Shown here in pieces: positions 22,060 to 23,739 of a stretch of 34,393 nucleotides of DNA. The notes beneath the pieces are model-generated. The model did no database searches, was not told the origin of the DNA, and was given only the letters and a program-made list of their open reading frames with translations. Numbering within the stretch: the stretch's first letter is position 1; the number at the start of each line of letters is the position of its first letter. Origin of the DNA: Bacteroidota bacterium (GTDB lineage: Bacteria > Bacteroidota > Bacteroidia > UKL13-3); the NCBI GenBank assembly GCA_947485745.1, contig CANKQY010000020.1, forward strand, positions 1 through 34,393. The letters are read 5' to 3'. Both the position numbers and the translations under genes were made by a program.

Positions 22060-22180
22060 AGACTCACTCACACCCTAACTCCCTCCTGTCTATGCTCCCT
22101 CTCCCGGGCTCTCCAAGCAGGTATTGCTGATACGCCGTTCCTCGCACATCAATATCGGCGAGATAAACTTCTCGCCCCAA
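22060..22180. repeat. GC-richer, repeat-like segment
   Basis: This part of the 675-nt gap (21968-22642) is visibly richer in G and C than its surroundings. It contains an 18-bp stretch similar to the 3' end of tRNA-Asn (22094-22111) and a 7-bp hairpin GGCGAGA/TCTCGCC (22157-22176). It has no convincing coding frame; a 61-aa minus-strand frame is not supported. It looks like a dispersed intergenic repeat or the edge of an inserted element, a judgement from appearance only. Confidence 0.35.
22094..22111 (-). repeat. Displaced copy of the tRNA-Asn 3' end (candidate att site)
   Basis: GCTCCCTCTCCCGGGCTC matches 17 of 18 bases of the tRNA-Asn 3' part at 23665-23682 in the same orientation. The shared piece runs from the first C of the CCA end through the acceptor arm into the T-stem. 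This is the usual core of tRNA-targeted integration sites. No integrase gene is present between the copies. Confidence 0.45.
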
Positions 22181-22222: not shown

Positions 22223-22541
22223 AGTTTGATTTTGGGCTTGAATCTTATGTTATAGAAACTCACACTCCAATTCAAATCTGCTTCCGCTCCCCAAGCTGGT
22301 CTATTCTCGAACCGATTCTGGAATGAATTGAGGGTTTATGCGACTTTGAACTATCTGTTTATTCAAGTGATGAATAATCGTGAAGTTCGCTTGATTCTGG
22401 TTGTTATAGCAATTTTGTGATGTTAACTCTAGTAGCGGGAGATCAGGCGATTTCTACCTTTTAGAAGGGTATGAATTGGTGGTTGATTTGTGGAAATATA
22501 TGAATAGGCGAGATGATTAATTTTCATTCGGAGTATAAGTT

Positions 22542-22640
22542 TTATTTAACCACATATCCAGCAACAGCTGATGTAGAAGGATAAATAATAACGTTTGTAA
22601 GACCTGGTAATGTTATCGCCAGTAATTGGGGCTTAGCGGT
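22542..22640 (-). pseudogene. Short remnant reading frame downstream of the Fic gene
   Basis: On the minus strand, just after the Fic stop and in another frame, about 33 codons read as a plausible secreted-protein tail with the segments LPGLTNVIIYPS and AVAGYVVK before TAA at 22544-22542. No start codon or family is seen. It may be the end of a gene truncated by the inserted Fic segment, or chance. Confidence 0.2.
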
Positions 22641-22645
22641 AATTA
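22633..22645. repeat. Left arm of the inverted repeat flanking the Fic gene
   Basis: TTAGCGGTAATTA is the reverse complement, with one mismatch, of TAACTACCGCTAA at 23463-23475. The arm overlaps the Fic stop codon (22643-22645). Read on the minus strand it gives CGCTAAG just after the gene, the place where an integron attC would begin. Confidence 0.5.
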
Positions 22646-23437
22646 TTTGATTGACTCTTTAAGTGCTTCAGGTAACATTAACAAAAAAGGAAGACATCTA
22701 TCCCAATATAGGGCATAGTAATTATATCCCAAAGCAATATTTTGGTAATAGTCAGGACGATTATCCCAATAATATTTTTCAGAACTAATTGACCAAGCAG
22801 ACATTCCTAATTTTGACACTAAAAACCATTTTTCAAGCAATCGTGCAGACCGACCATTACCATCCATAAACGGGTGAATTTTTGCAGTCCATAAATGAAT
22901 CATAGAAGCATAGTAAAAAACATCTTTGTAAGACAAATCCCGTTTCATTAATTCTGAAATATCAGCAAATAACTTGCTTAATTCTTCATTCAAAAATTGT
23001 GGCTCGACTGCTAAATAAACAGGTTTAAGTGATTTTGAATCGTGAACGCCAACTTGTTGCTTTCTAACTTTTCCTCGTAAATTAGCTGACAATAGTGTTT
23101 TAGCCGAAATTTCGTGTGTTTTCAAGAAATTAGTTTTGTTCAGGTTGTTTTCAGAGGCAAACTTGTATGCTTTTACTAAATCTTCAATCTCTTGCACTTC
23201 TTTTTTCTTCGGAAATGTTTTATTTCCTCTATTTCTAAAAAAGCTGTTTGCATCAAGAGTGTTACCCTCAATTTTAGACGAGTAAAGCGAAGAAGCTATC
23301 AGATAATATTCAAAATCATCAGTTGTAAATGTTGACTTTGACCTTAATTTATGGAATACTACTAACCAATCAATTTTACACTTTGACGAATAGCTATCGA
23401 GGTATTCGGACGATATAAATTTTAAGTGTTTTCCCAT
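22643..23437 (-). CDS. Fic-domain protein with N-terminal inhibitory motif
   Basis: Probable AMPylase (adenylyltransferase) that modifies a hydroxyl side chain of a target protein with AMP from ATP. 264 aa. The complete active-site motif HPFMDGNGRSAR lies at 188-199, with His188 as catalytic base and Asp192 for the metal. An N-terminal SSKIEGN at 53-59 fits the [S/T]xxxE[G/N] auto-inhibitory helix of class II Fic proteins. The body resembles Fic/DUF4172-less stand-alone forms; no antitoxin gene is adjacent. ATG at 23437; a TAAATTTG box ends 4 nt upstream, so the transcript is probably leaderless. It is flanked by an imperfect inverted repeat and, further out, by tRNA-Asn sequences, suggesting horizontal gain. 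Confidence 0.9.
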   Translation of the reverse strand: MGKHLKFISSEYLDSYSSKCKIDWLVVFHKLRSKSTFTTDDFEYYLIASSLYSSKIEGNTLDANSFFRNRGNKTFPKKKEVQEIEDLVKAYKFASENNLNKTNFLKTHEISAKTLLSANLRGKVRKQQVGVHDSKSLKPVYLAVEPQFLNEELSKLFADISELMKRDLSYKDVFYYASMIHLWTAKIHPFMDGNGRSARLLEKWFLVSKLGMSAWSISSEKYYWDNRPDYYQNIALGYNYYALYWDRCLPFLLMLPEALKESIK

Positions 23438-23441
23438 AGGA

Positions 23442-23449
23442 CAAATTTA
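23442..23449 (-). promoter_or_regulatory. Fic promoter -7 box (TAAATTTG)
   Basis: Exact TAnnTTTG match on the minus strand, separated from the ATG by TCCT only. No TTTG lies 19-20 nt upstream. The cassette therefore seems to carry its own promoter inside the inverted repeat. Confidence 0.6.
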
Positions 23450-23462
23450 CGATTTTAAATTA

Positions 23463-23475
23463 TAACTACCGCTAA
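23463..23475. repeat. Right arm of the inverted repeat flanking the Fic gene
   Basis: TAACTACCGCTAA, 12/13 complementary to 22633-22645. The arm continues into TAACATCGGTTTTGCAAAAG and a G-rich stretch up to about 23525, which looks like an intergenic repeat rather than unique sequence. Read on the minus strand the arm contains GTTAGCG, matching the R'-like end expected ahead of a cassette. The remaining 23526-23630 shows nothing recognisable. Confidence 0.45.
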
Positions 23476-23630
23476 CATCGGTTTTGCAAAAGCGGGGGTG
23501 CAGTGCTTAGTATGATTAATCGGTGCAACCTTTTTTGTGTAATTAGAATTTACCCTTATTTGAAAATACAACCATTCGTATTTGCTTAAATATCTATTAT
23601 TTACAACGATTTAATATGGCTTAAAAAGAA

Positions 23631-23662: not shown

Positions 23663-23739
23663 TGGCTCCCTCTCCTGGGCTCGAACCAGGGACCCCATGA
23701 TTAACAGTCATGTGCTCTAACCAGCTGAGCTAAGAAGGA
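23663..23739 (-). tRNA. tRNA-Asn (anticodon GUU), CCA encoded
   Basis: The acceptor TCCTTCT pairs with AGAGGGA (one G-U), discriminator G, and CCA is encoded at 23665-23663. The anticodon stem CATGA/TCATG encloses loop CTGTTAA, giving GTT at 23705-23703. D-arm AGCTCAGCTGGTTAGAGC and T-loop GGTTCGAGCC are intact, so the gene should be functional despite the candidate integration event at its 3' end. Confidence 0.97.

Follow-up and report, generated by a model that had tools for sequence, protein, structure and literature searches.

A Fic gene in a Bacteroidota genome is very probably the cargo of a single cassette of an integron-like system

The window analysed here is a stretch of 34,393 nucleotides of Bacteroidota DNA (GenBank assembly GCA_947485745.1, contig CANKQY010000020.1, positions 1 to 34,393), and it contains, beside a tRNA-Asn gene, a gene for a Fic-domain protein enclosed by two short inverted sequences (Table 1). 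The arms of this repeat are located as the original prediction had claimed and are complementary at 12 of 13 positions, or at 13 of 14 when extended. The left arm, TTAGCGGTAATTA, does overlap the Fic stop codon (22643-22645), and the right arm, TAACTACCGCTAA (23463-23475), is 25 nt upstream of the Fic start at 23437. The active-site motif of Fic proteins, HPFx(D/E)GN(G/K)R, is intact (HPFMDGNGRSAR). The protein also has an (S/T)xxxE(G/N)-like stretch, SSKIEGN, and is matched to SoFic by PADLOC with 76 bits. From the established knowledge of the family we take it to be probably an AMP-transferase, the target of which is unknown.

Table 1. Positions of the features of the Fic cassette and the adjoining half-site in the window
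Feature	Position	Strand	Basis
Left cassette end, TTAGCGGTAATTA; R' side after crossover	22633..22645	+	Sequence; matches left ends of array cassettes, GTTAGCGGTAAT
Fic-domain protein, 264 aa, reversed relative to the cassette	22643..23437	-	PF02661, E 5.8e-12
Putative Bacteroidota -7 element of TAnnTTTG type, TAAATTTG, just upstream of the Fic start and within the cassette	23442..23449	-	Consensus match only
R'' arm of the cassette's attC-like site, TAACTACCGCTAAC	23463..23476	+	Sequence; R'' arms of the family
attC-like site, 5' half: L'' arm TCGGTTTTGC (23478-23487), spacer, second arm; L' and R' missing	23477..23515	+	Alignment to G012, L133, L122, L149

By itself the repeat is real but weak, since a 13-nt pair with one mismatch is not rare in an AT-rich window. 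Four TTA...TAA pairs of this kind are present, and 6.9 are expected from shuffled sequence. The inverted repeat alone is thus no better than chance, and its meaning comes from its context.

A second place in the same genome matches the right flank of the Fic gene. This is contig C48 (19.7 kb), the start of which is an array of four single genes and five hairpins. Of these genes, one encodes a GH53 hydrolase (PF07745), another a lipoprotein-like protein, and the remaining two proteins of no known family. Between the genes are imperfect palindromes with CTACYGCTAACA at the start and AACGTTAGCRGTAA at the end, the best of which fold as DNA into a two-armed hairpin with a variable tip; gene stops fall just before these sites and gene starts just after them. 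A strict pattern for the window type of site matched the genome only at the window itself. A looser pattern gave five matches in this genome, of which the one on contig C65 was rejected as a chance match inside a coding gene.

The structure of the sites was drawn by hand on an alignment of 24 of them. In this alignment 94.8% of cells are paired and 16 of 20 pairs have changes on both sides, i.e. compensatory changes, while sliding the structure by 1-3 columns as a control reduces the pairing to 32-38%. Site length is nearly constant at about 140 nt, mostly with 117-121 nt from R'' to R'. Their core reads GTTA or GTTG, after which the sequence varies. The two L stems are perfect, and the spacer between the arms is asymmetric in a constant way (A versus AAAAC, 1 versus 5 nt). 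No known RNA family in Rfam covers them. A covariance model, R1, identified eight sites in the genome at E<1e-4, of which five are on C48 and the remaining three are single sites on C51, C100, and C2, and between 8 and 52 sites per genome in five well-assembled relatives. The intergenic repeats of Bacteroidota that the original prediction mentioned are attC-like sites of an integron-like system with arrays in this genome and its relatives, and the copies beside unrelated genes that it called for have been found: the eight in this genome and hundreds in relatives. In UKL13-3 (G062:C1) there are 52 sites in 3.2 Mb, in several clusters besides three integrase loci and as lone sites, and their orientation looks blockwise.

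The ends of the cassettes follow a rule. In the complete genome of UKL13-3 (CP012155.1; L057), an integrase gene and an attI-like site are followed by five cassettes with sites of about 140 nt, and every cassette begins with a stretch complementary to the R'' arm at the opposite end of the same cassette rather than to that of the attC before it. Across 31 cassettes in the fetched loci, the left and right ends of the same cassette agree at 177 of 248 positions, versus 83 expected (0 of 20,000 permutations). Matched ends of this sort are the signature of circular cassettes that recombine at a core divided between their two ends. The inverted repeat that encloses Fic would be an instance of it, the cassette beginning with TTAGCGGTAATTA and having TAACTACCGCTAA as its R'' arm. 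The one mismatch between them, A on the left and G on the right, is also that of the intact GTTAGCGGTAAT / GTTAGCGGTAGT cassettes of UKL13-3. Before the left arm there is a C in place of the G of the family (G^TT), the left junction being GGGGC^TTA in the window versus AACG^TTA in the arrays.

On the other side of the gene, positions 23466-23515 are about 87% identical over 47 nt to the 5' half of an intact attC in a relative, G012. The half-site tile scores 62, and the runner-up in the 34 kb, on both strands, scores 39. R1 found no complete site in the window, only marginal matches, and no fold or L' arm was found when 22500-22633 was considered as a second attC to the left of the unit. An attC fold at the cassette ends, by which the original prediction could be checked, is thus absent from the window, where the right-hand site has lost its 3' half; intact folds are present in the arrays elsewhere. 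The idea of a cassette between attC-type core halves is supported by comparison with the cassettes of relatives, with the correction that neither the sites nor the integrase are of the classical IntI kind. The closest Fic homologue in the order, from another genus (G020; 76% identity), is likewise reversed in a cassette. The left end of this cassette, GTTATGGGCAAG, matches its own R'' arm, GTTATGGGCTGG, and it is followed by an intact attC of 92 bits (L180:2559-2699).

The cassette had also been predicted to include its own promoter, which comparison supports, with nothing beyond a consensus match in the window. The motif concerned, TAnnTTTG, is what we take to be the -7 promoter element of Bacteroidota. 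As TAAATTTG is within the cassette, Fic may be expressed without an attI. In the cassettes of relatives (L180, L182) the Fic gene is preceded by a small ORF (...QFKGGLSGSEIIGKF...), perhaps a partner or antitoxin, which is absent from the window. Directly to the left of the Fic cassette, a stretch of about 98 nt (22432-22529) is repeated almost exactly at L095:275-376 on contig C100, where it likewise precedes a cassette that has an attC.

We consider it very probable that Fic is the cargo of a single cassette of this integron-like system. The copy in the window appears to be a lone and damaged cassette beside tRNA-Asn, with neither integrase nor array nearby. Being solitary, with its hairpin reduced to the 5' half, it is probably immobile. 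Lone cassettes are present at ordinary chromosomal places in the window and on C51, C100, and C2. How the one in the window arrived can only be inferred, either by insertion outside an array, as at attG sites, or as the remnant of a lost array. The empty site was sought in relatives through the synteny of tRNA-Asn and pfkB and the insertion point could not be pinned. The relatives could not decide the route because the 3' side of the tRNA is variable in the genus.

Is the Fic gene instead part of a genomic island inserted at the 3' end of tRNA-Asn, with the cassette ends merely incidental? The end of the tRNA gene (23665-23682) has a near copy, identical at 17 of 18 positions, at 22094-22111, 1.57 kb from the tRNA, which might be a relic of the tRNA or the distal boundary of an old island; the variability of the 3' side would also suit an island bounded by this copy. 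However, the copy is short, there is no island integrase in the window, and the attC half-site would be left unexplained. We regard an island as improbable in place of the cassette, although the two are compatible. Or is the repeat a coincidence, beside an intergenic repeat unrelated to it? Its chance frequency in the window would allow this. Yet no other stretch of the 34 kb matches attC as well as the right flank, the left end obeys the cassette rule down to the typical mismatch, and the Fic homologue of another genus also lies in an intact cassette, so that coincidence is likewise improbable. The cassette reading is retained.

The genome encodes one tyrosine recombinase that is unlike XerC and XerD, a protein of 363 aa on contig C35 (26368-27456), about 97 nt from the contig end. 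Linkage of integrase and array is not demonstrated within this genome because C35 and C48 are separate contigs; in relatives the array adjoins the integrase. Relatives of the integrase at E<1e-60 are present in 37 of 64 genomes of the order. Twenty fetched loci share the same plan, in which the integrase stop is followed by about 100 nt rich in stems, with TATAAnnnAGTTA at the end, and then by unrelated genes. The AGTTA of the attI-like stretch is the exact end of two draft contigs (G049:C14 and G030:C41), as expected of an assembly in which the following sequence is repeated or varies between cells.

Linkage was assessed at 80 named loci with relatives of the integrase. These include Flavobacterium frigidarium, F. 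limicola, F. xanthum, and F. fryxellicola, Chryseobacterium, Kaistella, Pedobacter arcticus, Cyclobacterium, Belliella, Schleiferia, Brumimicrobium, Saprospiraceae, and others. R1 found 161 sites at these loci, all of them on the integrase strand and 160 of them downstream of the integrase. About 10 of the 161 are not independent, as L110, L114, and L152 are from the genomes of some of the training sites. Contigs end within 700 nt downstream at 22 of the 80 loci and within the same distance upstream at 2. A Flavo-1 RNA (RF01705) is present just upstream of the integrase in F. limicola (L102:9845-9919). A plasmid of Chryseobacterium sp. SNU WT5 (NZ_CP041688.1; L195) has the integrase and an array of at least four sites, with a group II intron reverse transcriptase inside the array. 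From this plasmid copy it follows that the system can be mobile, and it may attract introns as classical attC sites do.

A putative attI was recognised at most of these loci. The crossover motif is present in 69 of the 80, most often 104 nt after the integrase stop, with a conserved stem that ends in TATAnnnnRGTT and is far more stable than shuffled sequences (mean z -5.2). Across L099-L178 the palindrome of this stem, about 100 nt after the integrase stop, is conserved and its letters vary between species; it may serve as an arm for protein binding, as a folded site, or as a hairpin with a regulatory role. TAnnTTTG occurs within 55 nt of the integrase stop in 30 of the 69 loci, compared to 1.7 in shuffles, and its start is mostly 86-92 nt before the crossover. 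This would make it a promoter upstream of the first cassette, a suggestion for which there is no evidence other than the sequence test.

The integrase belongs to a family with the Pfam domains Phage_int_SAM_4 and Phage_integrase. With TIGR02249 it scores 209.9 bits, below the IntI cut-off of 265, and no protein in the genome is above this cut-off. The catalytic residues are kept in the family (GLR, KGxKDR, HxLRH, GH, and Y). The 43-column insertion in the catalytic domain of IntI1, in the patch III region, is absent from all 22 relatives aligned to IntI1 (L196). Conversely, all of these have in common a domain of about 75 aa at the N-terminus that is not present in IntI1. Alignment with the structure of VchIntIA (PDB 2a3v) likewise leaves 20 residues in the integrase P0001 versus about 62 in VchIntIA at the same gap. 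In a survey of tyrosine recombinases the insertion was described as 'not fully conserved' in the integron-like subgroup, yet 'essential for integron function' (PMC8138268).

In the phylogenetic tree the family is a clade of its own (96/97), apart from that of IntI (100/100), and the XerC and XerD of this genome fall outside the family. Long-branch phage and plasmid integrases were excluded from this tree; a phage sequence placed inside the family in a first tree had been flagged as a long-branch artefact. The predicted fold (pLDDT 84) resembles those of XerA and VchIntIA, and the best match by both sequence and fold is XerA (5hxy), followed by VchIntIA (2a3v). The N-terminal domain has no Pfam name, and the Foldseek matches span the Xer-like part, with none naming this domain. 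At NCBI the plasmid copy is automatically called a 'site-specific tyrosine recombinase/integron integrase', a product name that comes from the generic Xer-type model NF040815 and makes no claim about the integrase family.

In the phylum as a whole, the integrase was found in 39 of 392 Bacteroidota genomes (about 10% of the sample) and sites in 154. The two co-occur, with sites in 37 of the 39 genomes that have the integrase versus 117 of the 353 that do not (Fisher p 1.7e-14). Some of the 117 genomes with sites and no integrase at E<1e-75 have large arrays, e.g. G421:C2:157558-182557. Either their integrases are divergent or their arrays have lost them. IntI above the cut-off is present in 107 of the 392 genomes, just one of which is listed as the window's own class, and some genomes hold integrases of both kinds.

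Might the Fic unit, then, be a classical cassette with GTTRRRY and RYYYAAC cores, moved by IntI? Integrons are defined by an integrase, attI, attC, and a promoter, and the general layout seen here is alike. We give this very little credence, as few of 150 sites match the classical cores (GTTRRRY in 7, RYYYAAC in 9), sites are rarer in genomes with IntI alone (20/100) than in those with neither integrase (97/253), and, as described above, this genome has no IntI above the cut-off and the integrase linked to the arrays has neither the IntI insertion nor a place in its clade. Terminal inverted repeats, either of a MITE or of a transposon-derived element, the latter offered as an alternative in the original prediction, would also put short inverted ends on either side of one gene. 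They are the least credible explanation of all, given that there is no transposase, that the ends agree within and differ between cassettes, and that the sites have a direction and are found linked to a gene for a tyrosine recombinase.

For the Fic gene as cassette cargo, the following mechanism is proposed. A tyrosine recombinase of a distinct family, that encoded on C35 in this genome, would recombine circular cassettes at hairpin attC-like sites, cutting at G^TTA or G^TTG. Cassettes would be inserted at the attI-like site, about 104 nt beyond the stop codon of the integrase, and a promoter of the TAnnTTTG type there would read into the first of them. The two halves of one attC core would come to sit at opposite ends of the integrated cassette, and this split would account for the inverted repeat around Fic. 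The cassette in the window would have been inserted outside an array, in the manner of attG insertion, or left by array loss, and would then have lost the 3' half of its attC. Sequence comparison establishes the arrays, the fold of the sites, their direction and linkage, the matched cassette ends, attI, the promoter motif, the co-occurrence, and the integrase family. That this integrase is the recombinase, and that the attC-like sites are used as single strands, is inferred. Counting against the reading are the absence of any observed recombination, the missing 3' half-site, the C for G at the left junction, and the lack of an integrase or array close to the Fic unit. The chance level of the inverted repeat alone, the separate contigs of integrase and array in this genome, and the 117 genomes that have sites without a close integrase also count against it.

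Have such arrays been described before? Integrons of Bacteroidetes have been rare in surveys, with In0s only in 2016 and later one complete integron in Salinibacter (PMC9024848), and according to IntegronFinder 2.0 they are very rare in this group. An earlier survey of intI required the IntI-specific domain (PMC2426708), and the archaeal integron survey recognised integrases by the same domain (PMC9668308). Surveys that recognise integrases in this way would miss the Bacteroidota family. No account of the system was found in the open-access papers searched. Since preprints and most subscription papers were outside this search, its novelty is provisional. A widespread and undescribed integron-like system of gene capture is apparently present in the Bacteroidota. 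We also think it likely, though with less assurance than the reading of the Fic unit, that the phylum has an integron system of its own, of separate origin or early split, in which a recombinase without the IntI domain captures hairpin cassettes and supplies Fic proteins, hydrolases, and toxin-antitoxin pairs phylum-wide. The system would be a large channel, so far unrecorded, through which genes are exchanged in Flavobacterium, Chryseobacterium, Pedobacter, Cyclobacterium, and others. It makes testable the question of how a tyrosine recombinase handles folded sites without the IntI domain that has been held essential.

Compared with IntI and the sedentary chromosomal integrons, the Bacteroidota system is alike in having a tyrosine recombinase, an adjacent attI-type site, and a promoter directed into the first cassette. 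It also has single-gene cassettes that end in a hairpin attC, a GTT core with matched R' and R'' halves, site families that are similar within a genome, and solitary cassettes outside arrays. It differs in that its integrases form a separate clade, without the patch III insertion and with the extra N-terminal domain of about 75 aa, and in that attI and the array are downstream of the integrase stop on the same strand. Its sites have GTTA or GTTG and a variable stretch rather than GTTRRRY, with the constant length of about 140 nt, the two perfect L stems, and the 1-versus-5-nt spacer. With XerC, XerD, and the archaeal XerA it shares the catalytic fold; the Xer proteins differ in that their role is dimer resolution at dif, with no arrays of cassettes. 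The insertion of IntI cassettes outside integrons, at attG sites, is described by Loot et al. 2024 (cited in PMC12901181). The lone cassettes at ordinary chromosomal places resemble the products of such insertion, which has been described for IntI and is only inferred for the Bacteroidota system.
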